A stretch of 34,846 bases of DNA from Gemmatimonadota bacterium (lineage in GTDB: Bacteria > Gemmatimonadota > Gemmatimonadetes > Gemmatimonadales > Gemmatimonadaceae), in the NCBI GenBank assembly GCA_003223455.1, contig QHVE01000026.1, positions 1-34,846 of the forward strand, given 5' to 3'. Below, piece by piece: positions 5,030 to 33,129 of this stretch. The notes beneath the pieces were generated by a model, which was not told where the DNA came from, made no database searches, and saw nothing but the letters and a program-made list of their open reading frames with translations. The position numbers and the translations under genes are program-made. Each line of letters starts with the position of its first letter. Within the stretch, counting starts at the first letter, position 1.

Positions 5030-5050
5030 TGTCATACTCGGGAGAACATC

Positions 5051-6169
5051 ATGGCGGAAAGCGAGCGCGCGCGTCTGCTGGCTTCGTACGACGATCAGCT
5101 CGCCGAGCTGAGGAGGTATCTTTGACCTCGATCACAAGCGGCAGCAGCTGACGGCGCTGGAGGCGCGAATGGGGAGCGCGGATTTCTGGAACAGCCAGGA
5201 GGCCGCGCAGGACGTCGTGCAACAGGTCAAGGGGCTGAAGAACTGGGTCGAGCCCTACGAAGCGCTCGTCGCTCGCGTGCAGAGCACACGCGAGCTCGCG
5301 GAGCTGCTCGACGCCGAGCCGGACGCCGAGATGGAGGCGGAGGTCTCGCGCGAAGCAACGCGCATCGGGGAGGAGCTCGAGGAGTTTCGACTCCGCTCAC
5401 TCCTCTCCCATCCAGACGACTTCCGTGACGCGCAGCTCGAGATCAGCGCAGGCGCCGGTGGGACCGAAGCGCAGGACTGGGCGTCGATGCTCATGCGCAT
5501 GTACACGCGGTGGGCCGAGCGCAAGGGTTTCACCGTCGAGATCGTCGACTTGAGTGAGGGCGAGGAGGCGGGCATCAAGGGCGCGGTGCTCGAGATTAAG
5601 GGCCTGTACGCCTATGGGTATCTGAAGGCCGAGAGCGGTGTACATCGACTCGTGCGCATCTCACCATTCGACTCGCAGGCGCGCCGGCACACGAGCTTCG
5701 CCTCGGTGTTCATCTACCCCGTCGTGGACACTGACATCAACATCGAGATCCGGGAGGAGGATCTGCGGATCGACGTCTTCCGCGCGTCGGGCGCGGGCGG
5801 TCAGCACGTGAACAAGACCAGCTCCGCGGTCCGCATCACGCACATCCCGACGGGTGTGGTGACCGCATCGCAGCAGCAGCGCTCGCAGCATAAGAACAAG
5901 GCGACCGCGATGCAGATGCTCAAGAACCGCCTCTATCAGATCGAGTTGAATAAGCAGCTCGCGAAGAAGGCGGAGCTCGACGCCAACAAATCCGACGTCA
6001 GCTTCGGCAGTCAGATCCGGAGTTACGTCTTCCAGCCCTACACGATGGTCAACGATCACCGCACCGAGCTGAAGATCCCGGACGTACAGAAGGTCATGGA
6101 CGGCGGGATCGATCCGTTCATCGAAGCCTTTCTCAAGGAGCACGGCGGCGAGCGGACGGGGAGCGCCGC

Positions 6170-16795: not shown

Positions 16796-17869
16796 GTGGC
16801 GGACTCCATTTCAGCGTCTCGTGACTTCGGCGGTGAGGGCTCTCGGGTCCTCACCGCCGAGGCCATTGCGGCTGCGGTGGGCGGAACGCTCCAGGGTGAC
16901 CCCGCCGCGCAGGTTTCCGGAGTCGCGCCGCTCGACCGGGCGGACGCGACACATCTGACCTTCCTCGCCAACGCGAAGTACGCTCCGCTGCTCGCCGAGC
17001 GGAGCATCGGCGTCCTGCTCGTGACGGCCGAGCTCGCGGACCTCGGCAACCCGCGGGCGCGCATCGTGGTGAAGAATCCGCACGAGGCGATGCTGCCGCT
17101 GCTGCCGCTGCTGTACCCGCCGCCGCCGCGGGTGCCCGGCATTCACCCCTCCGTGATTCTGGGTCGGGGCGTTGCGCTCGGCGACGAGGTGTCGCTCGGA
17201 CCAGGCGTCGTGCTTGCCGACGGCGTGCGAGTCGGGGCACGGACGCGGCTCGAAGCGCACGTCGTGCTCGGTGCCGGTGTGGAGGTCGGCGACGACTGCC
17301 ACGTCTATCCCGGCGCGACGCTCTACGCAGGGACGCGGGTGCGCGACCGCGTCCGAATCCACGCCGGCGCGCGCCTCGGATCCGACGGCTTCGGATACGT
17401 TTTCCGGGAGGGAGAGCACGCGAAGATCCCGCACGTCGGTCGGTGCATCGTCGAGTCCGACGTGGAGATCGGCGCGAACACGACGATCGATCGGGGCAGC
17501 ATCGACGACACGGTAATCGGCGCGGGGACCAAGATCGACAACCTCGTGCACGTCGCGCACAACGTCCGCGTCGGACGGCTCTGCCTCCTGATGGCGCAGG
17601 TCGGCATCGCCGGCTCGGTGCGCATCGAGGACGGCTGCATTCTCGCGGGCCAGGTGGGCGTCTCCGGCCACGTGACGATCGGCAAAGGCGCACGGCTCGC
17701 CGCGCAGGCAGGTGTCTTCGGGTCGATCCCCGCTGGTGAGACCTGGTCCGGCTACCCCGCGCGGCCGCACAAGGAAGCGCTCCGTGCGCAGGCGGCGATG
17801 TTCAAGTTGCCCTCGCTCATTCGCGCGCTGGAGCGACTGGTCGAGCGACGTCGGGACGACGAGCGCTGA
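16796..17869 (+). CDS. lpxD: UDP-3-O-acylglucosamine N-acyltransferase
   Basis: LpxD adds the N-linked acyl chain in the third step of lipid A synthesis. The 357-residue protein has an N-terminal uridine-binding domain (about 18-110) and a left-handed beta helix of hexapeptide repeats from about 117 to 310, with a C-terminal helix. Seen: GSDGFGY at 195-201 and the catalytic His255 in [10 protein letters not shown]. The chosen start is GTG at 16796, three bases after the ompH stop; the first 17 residues are not conserved-looking, so a slightly later start is possible. The stop overlaps lpxC (TGATG). Confidence 0.95.
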
Positions 17870-19134
17870 TGCGGCGTACCATCGGGCGGGCGGTCACCGT
17901 ATCCGGCACGGGACTCCATCTTGGCGTCCCGTGCACCCTCGAGTTCCGTCGCGCGGCGAGCGGATCCGGAATCCGCTTCGAGCGCCGCGACCTCGAGTCC
18001 TCGGTACCGATTCCGGCGCTGGCCGAAAGTGCCGTGCTCTCCGAGCGCCGCACCCAACTCGGCGAGGACCCCAACGCGGTCCACACGGTCGAGCATGTCC
18101 TCGCCGCCGTGGCGGCGCTGGAGATCGACGATCTGCTCATCTCGCTCGACGGGCCCGAACCTCCGATCATGGACGGCAGCGCGCAACCGTTCCTCGACGC
18201 GTTGCGCGGCGCGGGCATCACGCAGCACGCGGGCTGCGTGCGCGTGGCGCGACTGACCGGACCAGTGCGGCTCGTGGACGGCGACTCGATCTACGAAGGT
18301 AGTCCGTCGGAGCATCTCGATCTCGACGTGACGATCGACTTTCCGCACGAGATGATCGGGCGGCAGCGGTATGCCGCGCGGATGACGCCCGAGCTGTTCG
18401 AGCGCGAGCTGGGGTGGGCTCGCACATTCGGCTTCGTCCGGGAAGTCGAGCCGCTACGCGCCCGGGGACTGATCAAGGGCGCGTCGACGCAGAATGCCGT
18501 CGTGCTCGACGATCACGGCGTGGTCGAGAACGTGCTCCGCTCGCCGGATGAGTTCGTGCGACATAAGATGATGGACTGTGTGGGGGACCTCGCGCTCGTC
18601 GGCGCGCACCTGAAGGCGCGCGTCGTGGCGCACAAACCAAGTCATCGCGGCACCGTACTGTTCGTGCGTGCGATGCAGGCGTCGCTGTCCCGGGAGACCC
18701 AGGTGCTCGGAATCGAAGAGATCATGAAGGTACTGCCGCACCGCTATCCCTTCCTGCTGGTCGATCGCATACTCGAGATCGACGCGGGGAAGCGCATCGT
18801 CGGCATCAAGAACGTGACGATCAACGAGCCGTTCTTTCAGGGCCACTTCCCGGGCCATCCGATCATGCCTGGAGTCCTGATCATCGAGGCGATGGCGCAG
18901 GTGGGCGGCATGCTGCTCATGGGCGCGGTCCCGGATCACGACAAGAAGGTGGTGTACTTCACGTCGCTCAACAACGTGAAATGGCGCCGGCCCGTGAAGC
19001 CGGGCGACCAACTGCGCTTCGAGCTCGACCTGCTCCAGGTACGCGGCATGATGTGCAAGATGCAGGGCGTCGCCAAGGTCGACGGCGAAGTGGTCTGCGA
19101 AGCGGAGATGGGCGCCATGGTTCGCGACCGATGA
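17869..19134 (+). CDS. lpxC/fabZ: bifunctional LpxC-FabZ fusion: UDP-3-O-acyl-GlcNAc deacetylase / 3-hydroxyacyl-ACP dehydratase
   Basis: A 421-residue fusion. Residues about 1-270 are LpxC, the zinc deacetylase that commits the cell to lipid A: VHTVEH at 71-76 (Glu75, His76), RHKMMD with His232 and Asp236 as zinc ligands, GWARTFGF at 182-189, and His259 as the expected acid catalyst. Residues about 278-421 are FabZ, the dehydratase of fatty-acid elongation: [11 protein letters not shown] with His326 and Glu340, spaced 14 residues as in single FabZ. All catalytic residues are kept, so both halves should be active. Such fusions are known in Bacteroidetes and relatives. LpxC and FabZ compete for 3-hydroxyacyl-ACP flux, so fusion fixes their ratio. 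The stop overlaps lpxA (ATGA). Confidence 0.95.
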
Positions 19135-28825: not shown

Positions 28826-30781
28826 ATGATGTCCGTGCCCGCTACCATCCTCGAGAAGATCCCGCACCTGCCCGAATCGCCGGGTGTGTATCTCTGGCGA
28901 GACGCGCAGGGAAAGGTTCTGTACGTCGGCAAGGCGAAGCGCCTGCGCTCGCGCGTGCGGAGCTATGTCGCCACGGACCATCGCGAGAGTGTGAAGACGC
29001 GAGCGCTCATGGAGCAGGCCGAGGCGCTCGACACGATCGTCGTGCCCAGCGAGGCGCACGCGCTCATCCTCGAAGCCAACCTCATCAAGGAGTACAAGCC
29101 GCGGTTCAACATCGCGCTGCGCGACGACAAGTCGTACCCCTACATCAAGGTCACGGTGCAGGAGCCGTTTCCGCGCGTATGGGTCACCCGTCGTCTGCAG
29201 AACGACGGAGCGCGGTATTTCGGCCCGTATACCGACGTCGGCGCGATGCGGCGGTCGCTCGATGTCGTGAAGCGGCTCTTCACCGTCCGGTCGTGCAACT
29301 TCGACATGCCGAAGCAGATGCCCGACCGGCCGTGTCTGGACTATCACATCGGACGATGCAAGGCGCCGTGCATCTTCGCGCAGACCCAGGCGGAGTACGC
29401 GGCGATGATCGACGAGGTGATCGACTTCCTCGACGGGAAGCCCGAGGAGGTGGAGCGGAAGATTCGCGAGCGGATGGCGCTCGCCGCGGAGTCGCTCGAC
29501 TTCGAGCGCGCCGCCCAGCTCCGCGACGTGCTGTCGCATCTCGAGACGATGGAGGAGCCGACCGTCGTGATGGAGGTCGAAGGCGGCGACCGCGACGTCG
29601 TCGGCTACGCGCGCGACGGCGACGAGGCCGTGGTCGCCCTCATGCGCATCCGCGGCGGCAAGCTGCTCGCGCGCGACCACCAGTTCGTCGAAAACATCGA
29701 CGGCGAGCGCGACGAGGAGGTGCTGGCGAGCTATCTCGCCGGACCGTATCGGCTGCTGCACGAGCGCGCGCACGAACTGATGCTTCCCTTCGAGGTCGAC
29801 GACCGAGCCGTGGTCGAGGAGTCGCTCGAGCGTACGAAGATCCACGTGCCGCAGCGCGGTCCTCGACGCGACCTGATCGAGCTGGCGCAGCAGAATGCGC
29901 GGCATCTCCTCGAGGAAGCGCGTCTCACTGGTGAGGCGACGGAAGAGCGGGCTGGCGATCCGGTGTACGAGCTTCAGCGTCAGCTCGGCTTGCAGAAGGT
30001 CCCGCGCGCCTTCGTGTGCTTCGACATCTCGCACGCGCAGGGGACGGACACAGTGGCGTCATGCGTCTGGTTCCAGAATGGCCGCCCGCACCGCTCCGAG
30101 TACCGGAAGTTCAAGGTGAAGACCGTCGAGGGGATCGACGATTTCGCGTCGATGCGCGAGGTGGTCGGGCGTTATTTCCAGCGCCGCCTCGACGACGACC
30201 GCCCGCTGCCCGATCTGGTATTGATCGACGGAGGCAAGGGCCAGCTCAACGCTGCCGCGGAGGCCCTCGAGCATCTGGGACTCGCATCTCTGCCAATCGT
30301 CAGCCTCGCCAAGCGCGAGGAGGAAGTGTTCCTTCTGGGTCGGTCCGAGCCGCTCCACCTGTCGCGGCGCTCGCCCGCGCTCCGCATGCTTCAGCAGGCG
30401 CGCGACGAAGCGCATCGCTTCGCCATCACGTTCCAGCGGAAGCGTCGCACCGTGCGCACCATCACCTCGGAGCTGCTGCGCATTCCGGGCATCGGTGAAT
30501 CGAAGCGTCGGTTGTTGCTGACGACGTTCGGCAGCCTGCAGGCGATTCGCGATGCCACGCCCGAGCAGATCGGGGCGCTACCGGGCTTTTCGGTGAAGAG
30601 CGGCCAGCGCATCCTCGAGGCACTCCGCACGTCCGACGCGACCGCGACCGCGCCCGCGATCGTTCCGCCCGCACCGGCGGCGACGGAGGAATCCCCCGAT
30701 GCACCGCCTCTCGATTCGCCATCGGTTCAGGATGACACGAGCGAGCTCGCGAGCCCCTCGAGCGACGCCGACTCTCGATGA
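28826..30781 (+). CDS. uvrC: UvrC, excinuclease ABC subunit C
   Basis: UvrC makes both incisions in nucleotide excision repair. The 651-residue product has the GIY-YIG nuclease (GVY at 20-22, YVG at 33-35), a Cys-rich patch (CLDYHIGRCKAPC), a UVR motif (ESLDFERAAQLRDV), the RNase H-like nuclease with Asp400 in FDISHAQG and Asp468 in DGGKGQ, and a double helix-hairpin-helix (about 552-606, with IPGIGESKRR and LPGFSVKSG). A Pro/Ser-rich tail of about 45 residues is extra. Either ATG 28826 or 28829 could start it; the long upstream extension of the frame overlaps murJ and is not real. The stop overlaps thrC (ATGA). Confidence 0.96.
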   Translation: MMSVPATILEKIPHLPESPGVYLWRDAQGKVLYVGKAKRLRSRVRSYVATDHRESVKTRALMEQAEALDTIVVPSEAHALILEANLIKEYKPRFNIALRDDKSYPYIKVTVQEPFPRVWVTRRLQNDGARYFGPYTDVGAMRRSLDVVKRLFTVRSCNFDMPKQMPDRPCLDYHIGRCKAPCIFAQTQAEYAAMIDEVIDFLDGKPEEVERKIRERMALAAESLDFERAAQLRDVLSHLETMEEPTVVMEVEGGDRDVVGYARDGDEAVVALMRIRGGKLLARDHQFVENIDGERDEEVLASYLAGPYRLLHERAHELMLPFEVDDRAVVEESLERTKIHVPQRGPRRDLIELAQQNARHLLEEARLTGEATEERAGDPVYELQRQLGLQKVPRAFVCFDISHAQGTDTVASCVWFQNGRPHRSEYRKFKVKTVEGIDDFASMREVVGRYFQRRLDDDRPLPDLVLIDGGKGQLNAAAEALEHLGLASLPIVSLAKREEEVFLLGRSEPLHLSRRSPALRMLQQARDEAHRFAITFQRKRRTVRTITSELLRIPGIGESKRRLLLTTFGSLQAIRDATPEQIGALPGFSVKSGQRILEALRTSDATATAPAIVPPAPAATEESPDAPPLDSPSVQDDTSELASPSSDADSR

Positions 30782-31885
30782 GCGTATGGCATCTCGAGTG
30801 TTCGGCCTGTGACTACGTGGGGGCCGGTCGAGCGATCGCCTCGGTCTGTCCTCGCTGCGGCCAGCCGCTCCTCGTACGCTACGACTCGCCCTGGCCGGCC
30901 CGCGATGAGATCTCCTCGCGGTGGGACCTCTGGCGCTACCGCGCCGTGCTCCCGATCGACGAGAGCGAGTCGCCGGTCTCGCTCGGCGAGGGGGTGACGC
31001 CGCTCCTCGACTCACCGACGCTGGCTCGTGCGCTCGGTGTCGCCAGGCTGTGGATCAAGGACGAGGGGCGCAACCCGACGGCGTCGTTCAAGGCGCGCGG
31101 CATGAGCGCCGCGGTCACGCGTGCGAAAGCCCTCGGCGTGCCCGGGCTCGTCGTCCCCACGGCGGGGAACGCCGGAGCGGCGCTCGCCGCGTACGGCGCG
31201 GCCGCATCGCTGGCGGTTCGCGTCTTCGCGCCCGCGAGCACTCCCTCGCCGATCCTCGCGACGATCCGCGCACTGGGTGCGGAGCTCGATCTCGTGGAGG
31301 GCCACATCGGCGACGCGGGACAGCGCTCACGCGCGTTTGCCGACGCGGAGGGATGGTTCGACATGTCCACGCTGCGCGAGCCGTATCGGATCGAGGGCAA
31401 GAAGACGATGGGGATCGAGATCGCCGAGCAAATGGAATGGCGGCTGCCGACGCACGTCGTCTATCCGACGGGCGGTGGAACGGGGCTGATCGGCATGTGG
31501 AAGGTGTTCGCCGAGATGCGCGACGGTGGGTGGTTCTCCTCCGACGTCGCGCTGCCGAGCATGATCTCCGCGCAGGCAACGGGGTGCGCGCCGATCGTGC
31601 GAGCGTTCGAGAACGGCGCCGTCTCGGCGGTTCCATGGGAGGATCCGCAGACGCACGCCAGCGGACTGCGAGTCCCCGGTCCTCTCGGCGATCGGCTCAT
31701 CCTGCGCGCCCTCCGCGAGAGTGGCGGTACCGCCGCCGCCGTGACCGAGAATGTGATCGCGCGTGAGACGCTTCGGCTCTCGCGCGAGACCGGCATCGAT
31801 GCCGCTCGTGCGGTCGGGTGCCGTACCGCGCGATGCGGAGGTCGTGCTGTTCAACACGGGAAGCGGCGCTTCGTATCGCTTCTGA
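30778..31885 (+). pseudogene. thrC: threonine synthase, frame-disrupted by a small internal deletion
   Basis: ThrC makes threonine from O-phosphohomoserine with PLP. Residues 1-343 are good: a zinc ribbon (Cys 8, 11, 24, 27), SFKARG with the PLP Lys105, TAGNAGAALAAYG, and the PTGGGTGL phosphate loop. After ETGIDAA (about 31782-31806) the expected PEGGA-type segment of roughly a dozen codons is missing and the frame changes. The normal C-terminus, LVRSGAVPRDAEVV then LFNTGSGASYRF, is intact in the next frame from 31805 to the TGA at 31883. The missing length must be 3n+2 bases. The original frame instead runs without a stop into larC. It could be a true mutation or a sequence/assembly error; the otherwise clean gene favours a recent event or error. 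Confidence 0.8.
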
Positions 31886-31941
31886 GCGGGGATCACTCGC
31901 GCCTCGACTGGCGCGCCATCCCATACGCTGCGCCATCGACC

Positions 31942-31947
31942 TATCTT
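31942..31947 (+). promoter_or_regulatory. possible -10 element just before larC
   Basis: TATCTT ends six bases before the larC ATG at 31954, the same hexamer as in the promoter at 2802. Transcription would begin about at the ATG, giving a leaderless mRNA. The -35 position (TCCCAT) is poor. Confidence 0.35.
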
Positions 31948-31953
31948 GACCGC

Positions 31954-33129
31954 ATGCGCACCGCGATCCTCGATCCGTTCAGCGGCATCTCCGGCGACAT
32001 GACGCTCGGCGCGCTGATCGGCGTTGGCCTGGACCGCGACTGGCTGCGCGCGCTGCCGGCGCAGATCGGACTCCCCGACGTGGGCGTCGTCATCCGCGAG
32101 GTGCTGCGTGGCGAGATCGTCTGCTGGAAGGTGGATTTCGACGTCCCGCCTCAGCCACACGGTCGGCACATCGATCAGATTCGCGAGCTCGTCGCCGCGT
32201 CGGGCGCGCCGACGGAAGTGCGGGAGCGAGCCGACCGCGTGTTCTGGTCGATCGCCGAAGCGGAGGGGGAGATTCACGGGCTGCCTCCGACCGAGGTGCA
32301 TCTGCACGAGGTGGGCGCGGTCGACGCGATTCTCGACGTCGTCGGCGCGGTCTGGGGGTTCGCGCAATTGGGCGTGGAAGACGTTCGCTGCGGTGTCATT
32401 CGCACGGGGGACGGAACGGTGCGCGCCGCGCACGGCCTGCTGCCCGTGCCCGCGCCGGCGACGCTCAAGCTGCTCGAGGGGCACCGGGTCAGTCCCGGCC
32501 CCGACGGCGCTGGCGAGCTCGTCACGCCGACCGGCGCGGCGCTCGTGCGTGAACTCTCGACGGGAACTCCCCCCGACGAGTACGTACCGCGCGCCAGCGG
32601 TTTCGGGGCTGGCGCGAAGGACTTTGCGGGGCGTGCCAACGCGCTGCGGATCGTGCTCGCGGACGTCGACGCGCGAACCGCAGTCGATGGTCAGCGCGAG
32701 CCCATCGCCCTCGTTGCGGCCGATCTGGACGATATGTCGCCCGAGTATCTTGCCGCCGTTGCCGACCGTGCGCGCGTCGAGGGCGCGCTAGATGCGTTAC
32801 TCGTGCCCGTCACGATGAAGAAGGGACGCCAGGGCACGCGCGTCGAGATACTCTGCCGCCCCGAGGACGCGGCACGATTCGAAGCACTACTGCTCCGTGA
32901 GACGAGCACGATCGGAGTTCGGCGAACGGAGTGGAGCCGCAGCGTGCTGCCGCGCGAGGAGCGCCTCACGGACGTACTCGGTCATTCCGTGCGCCTGAAA
33001 GTCGTGACGCTGCCGAATGGTGAGCGAAGGGCAAAACCCGAGTTCGACGACGTGCAACGCATCGCACTGGCGACCGGCCGTAGCGCTTTCGATATTTATC
33101 AGCTTGCCCTCGCGGCAGATCGCCGCTGA
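31954..33129 (+). CDS. larC: LarC, nickel-pincer cofactor nickel insertion protein
   Basis: LarC inserts nickel into the pyridinium bisthiocarboxylate mononucleotide cofactor first found in lactate racemase. The 391-residue product is full length: ILDPFSGISGDMTLG at the N-terminus, LPPTEVHLHEVGAVDAILD near 108-126 with clustered His, VTPTGAALVREL, and the C-terminal domain with DLDDMSPEYLAAV and MKKGRQGTRVEILC. In Lactobacillus the two halves are joined by frameshifting; here one frame covers both. The ATG at 31954 begins exactly at the family N-terminus, although the disrupted thrC frame runs into it without a stop. larA, larB and larE are not in the window, so the client enzyme is unknown. 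Confidence 0.92.
   Translation: MRTAILDPFSGISGDMTLGALIGVGLDRDWLRALPAQIGLPDVGVVIREVLRGEIVCWKVDFDVPPQPHGRHIDQIRELVAASGAPTEVRERADRVFWSIAEAEGEIHGLPPTEVHLHEVGAVDAILDVVGAVWGFAQLGVEDVRCGVIRTGDGTVRAAHGLLPVPAPATLKLLEGHRVSPGPDGAGELVTPTGAALVRELSTGTPPDEYVPRASGFGAGAKDFAGRANALRIVLADVDARTAVDGQREPIALVAADLDDMSPEYLAAVADRARVEGALDALLVPVTMKKGRQGTRVEILCRPEDAARFEALLLRETSTIGVRRTEWSRSVLPREERLTDVLGHSVRLKVVTLPNGERRAKPEFDDVQRIALATGRSAFDIYQLALAADRR

Follow-up and report, generated by a model that had tools for sequence, protein, structure and literature searches.

An apparent thrC-larC fusion in a Gemmatimonadota draft genome coincides with the absence of 38 nt from a threonine-synthase-like gene

Does the 783-codon open reading frame that runs from a threonine-synthase-like gene into larC encode a fused enzyme, or does it merely connect a broken gene to its neighbor? 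The window, meaning the whole stretch of DNA that was analyzed, is 34,846 bp long and constitutes an entire contig (C96) of a draft genome (G000) of 4.96 Mb in 127 contigs. The named relatives nearest to this genome are Gemmatimonadaceae, nearly all of them metagenome-assembled (MAGs). No conspecific genome was found among the genomes compared; the nearest relative is 77% identical in protein. A first-pass annotation, made from the letters alone, had placed a frame-changing deletion in thrC after the residues ETGIDAA and had noted that the original frame meets no stop before larC. Both observations were confirmed by the alignment and by the open frame. The features are as follows:

30778..33129, + strand: apparent thrC-larC open reading frame, 783 codons, open incidentally
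30778..31804, + strand: 5' part of the threonine-synthase-like gene (PRK08197 type), in frame; 453 bits to NCBIfam PRK08197 (cut-off 303), 74-77% identity with same-genus orthologues
31804..31805, + strand: junction at which, by alignment, 38 nt are absent compared to all relatives (spacing of 38 nt in 91/91 distinct relatives)
31805..31885, + strand: displaced original C-terminus, LVRSGAVPRDAEVVLFNTGSGASYRF and a stop, in the next frame; translation compared with relatives
31805..31956, + strand: out-of-frame tail plus intergenic spacer, a meaningless linker of the apparent fusion; no family match between residues 371 and 396
31957..33129, + strand: larC, intact, with its own ATG; covers positions 2-375 of the 375 in Pfam Ni_insertion

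The start ATG of the threonine-synthase-like gene overlaps the stop codon of uvrC (ATGA). The PRK08197 threonine synthase profile matches residues 3-348 of the open reading frame with 453.4 bits, so that the cut-off is reached despite the truncation; an intact orthologue (L003) scores 488 bits. The window gene thus resembles the PRK08197 / NF006050 threonine synthases in its profile match, and its orthologues share the uvrC-thrC-larC neighborhood; it differs from the family in that the last ~39 residues are missing or out of frame. LarC, which acts in nickel pincer cofactor biosynthesis (Pfam Ni_insertion, TIGR00299, NF052512), is covered by its complete profile in one frame, over residues 397-774, and the larC start in the window aligns with the starts in most relatives. 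The LarC domain itself is no different from its homologues; only the frame upstream of it is unusual.

In the relatives, 13 codons (APEGGCALxVxxx) separate GIDA from LV..G..P.DAEVV.FNTGSGASYR. The 13 codons between D-A and L-V-R are replaced in the window by one retained G, so that exactly 38 nt (3x12+2) are absent: the letters GAT GCC G are followed directly by CTC GTG CGG TCG GGT. If the lost copy began with GCTC, the junction could lie up to 3 nt further on, as far as 31807. The first-pass annotation had deduced a loss of 3n+2 bases, about 35-38 in number, and was right on both counts. Reading from CTC in the next frame recovers the normal C-terminus, slightly longer than that annotation had quoted, with its stop at 31883-31885; this stop is bypassed in the 783-codon frame. 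Spacing across the lost segment was constant in every distinct relative in which it could be measured. The comparison with close relatives that had been proposed as a check covered 110 loci, which include some genes twice because they were fetched from two collections; of these, 108 are intact, a contig end truncates one, and the window alone is broken.

The missing stretch removes the conserved APEGGCAL segment and shifts the frame of the last 26 residues, among them the conserved N-T-G-x-G motif; the window gene therefore lacks an in-frame, complete C-terminus carrying the PEGG and NTGxG motifs. In alignments with solved threonine synthases, the lost segment falls on their CEPASAA-like segment and the displaced NTGSG on the LTGHG of the Thermus thermophilus enzyme; the Thr of this motif presumably contacts the PLP ring nitrogen. 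On the strength of these alignments, the truncated enzyme is predicted to be inactive. A literature search on the PLP contact of Thr317 found nothing usable, and the same was true of a search on LarC frameshifting. A rescue by programmed frameshifting was rejected on the ground that the missing bases belong to conserved coding sequence.

The thrC-like gene and larC are neighbors in most of the family, each with its own stop and start and with a median gap of ~30 nt. The order uvrC, thrC-like gene, larC is conserved in the relatives as separate open reading frames. The shifted frame lacks a stop before larC in 10/22 relatives, and the same 38-nt loss would open an in-frame larC fusion in 5/22; the fusion is therefore incidental. 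When 298 genomes of the phylum were scanned, all matches listed that span both genes contained at least one stop, with the exception of the window's own. A stop-free thrC-larC fusion was thus confined to the window, both among these listed matches and among the 110 loci.

That a ThrC-LarC fusion enzyme functions here and was selected as such is highly improbable. In its favor, no stop interrupts the frame and both large domains can be recognized; against it, the PLP enzyme has lost its conserved PEGG segment and its NTG motif, the linker consists of a coding tail read out of frame, no second fusion occurs among the matches listed for the 298 genomes, and chance alone is expected to produce an open fusion in about a fifth of the relatives. 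We give just as little credence to a variant in which the deletion is real and fixed and a 783-residue ThrC'-LarC chain is made and used, for example with a catalytically dead PLP fold serving as the scaffold to which LarC is tethered. Whether the deletion is real or stems from the assembly, a functional ThrC-LarC fusion is very improbable.

Very probably, the window gene is no new fused enzyme; the false fusion arises from an assembly lesion or from an ordinary broken copy of the gene. In this single draft assembly, one conserved PRK08197-type gene is broken because 38 bp are absent close to its 3' end; with the original stop bypassed, the frame happens to stay open into an intact larC, and LarC is probably still made from its own start. 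Genes disrupted by indels are known to be read as fusions in draft genomes, and this is an ordinary instance of that kind of event: one out-of-frame indel bypasses a stop and joins two neighboring genes. The window differs from the commoner cases in having lost 38 bp, as opposed to 1-2 nt in a homopolymer.

The first-pass annotation had also called for a search for a second thrC, and two further complete ThrC genes were found in the genome. The second ThrC (C14:609-1934) overlaps the end of thrB and scores 266 bits to TIGR00260, against a cut-off of 167; the third lies on C62, near another thrB, and scores 252 bits. Two separate sets of thrB plus thrC are therefore present (C62:42149-45878 and C14:4-1934). 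The operon on C14 is cut by the assembly: homoserine dehydrogenase extends past the end of C53, and thrB is truncated at the start of C14. These two contig ends presumably belong together, because the order thrA-thrB-thrC is found in a relative (G004). The window gene scores 137-140 bits to the TIGR00260 thrC equivalog, under the cut-off of 167.1. Most of the intact orthologues in the sampled family score 135-160 bits, and three reach 168-183. The window gene is a separate PRK08197-type paralogue below the TIGR00260 cut-off, like most of its intact orthologues, and for this reason "thrC" is here a family name that does not prove a role. Thr_synth_N (PF14821) had no match in the genome; it is not part of this type of ThrC.

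The first-pass annotation had argued that, if the loss were real, threonine synthesis would depend on another gene. Other ThrC genes do exist, as it supposed; the consequence is weaker than it stated, and its interpretation is in this respect only partly supported. Threonine synthesis probably never rested on the window copy alone, because two other ThrC genes score above the cut-off, whereas the window gene and most of its orthologues score below it. A literature search on threonine synthase in Gemmatimonadetes found nothing usable.

In contrast to G000 and G004, four relatives (G008, G010, G015, and G018; 92-100% complete) gave no match to PF00742 (homoserine dehydrogenase) and no thrB that reached the cut-off, in a search confined to these families, and they lack a canonical second ThrC. 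All four keep the PRK08197-type gene, which adjoins uvrC and/or larC in the loci examined, those of G008, G010, and G018. Since these relatives keep the gene without a recognizable homoserine dehydrogenase and homoserine kinase, there are hints that the PRK08197-type gene is perhaps not a threonine synthase, and its true substrate is uncertain.

None of the remaining thrC-like codons is changed at a near-invariant position (0/97), and the displaced tail fits the family perfectly. The dN between the window gene and its same-genus orthologues is 0.177-0.200, compared to ~0.07-0.13 among those orthologues. The larC dN differs less (0.223-0.262 for the window against 0.158-0.229 among same-genus relatives). 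The raised dN of 30778-31803 relative to larC, without changes at near-invariant positions, counts against the favored explanation: it could mean that constraint had relaxed somewhat before the deletion, or that the lesion is older. Long-standing pseudogene decay was not seen at the near-invariant sites, though dN is mildly raised. Because no other gene checked on the contig is broken and the 97 near-invariant positions show no decay, the lesion is either recent or an assembly error.

Between these two, a recent real deletion and an assembly error, the balance is near even. For the assembly error, we put the chance close to one half: the gene would be intact in the organism, and either 38 bp from a very GC-rich stretch would have dropped out of the contig or two strain variants would have been joined in it. 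This is consistent with the fragmented draft and with nearest named relatives that are nearly all MAGs, with a lost segment that is ~76% GC in the relatives, with the lack of decay at near-invariant sites, with a homologue in 60/60 of the nearest genomes (a clear orthologue in most), and with assembly breaks elsewhere, such as that inside the thrA-thrB-thrC operon. Against it, homopolymer errors do not usually take the form of a clean 38-bp loss, the junction is not spanned by any exact long repeat that could mislead an assembler, no break was seen in the other genes checked on the contig, and the assembly contains no second copy of the region, intact or otherwise. A duplicate or haplotig with an intact allele was sought in the assembly and not found. 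A literature search on indel errors in MAGs found nothing usable.

The real deletion, which would be recent and would have inactivated a dispensable paralogue in this lineage, we rate a little short of an even chance. Redundancy with the two other ThrC genes would have helped it, as, possibly, would slippage between short repeats: the junction in the window holds a single GCTC, whereas two same-genus relatives (L003 and L008) have two, as direct repeats exactly 38 nt apart over the breakpoint. The slightly raised dN of the window gene also fits a real loss. On the other hand, the deletion is seen in a single genome, and nearly all of the nearest genomes retain the gene, even the four sampled ones without homoserine dehydrogenase or thrB above cut-off, so that it is probably not freely dispensable.

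In either case, an annotation pipeline would record a threonine synthase-LarC fusion that is seen in no other genome examined, and a pathway model could mistake the organism for a threonine auxotroph despite its two other ThrC genes.

Two other frames of the contig deserve mention. At 17869-19134, lpxC and fabZ, as named from reading the sequence and not from a family search, form one continuous open reading frame of 421 aa. This stretch also aligns without a break in G003, G004, G010, and G022, and the putative lpxC-fabZ is therefore a conserved fusion, unlike thrC-larC. At 5050-5180, upstream of the prfB open reading frame, a short frame ends in AGGAGGTATCTTTGACC, the classic programmed +1 frameshift site of release factor 2; prfB annotated from 5169 misses its N-terminus.
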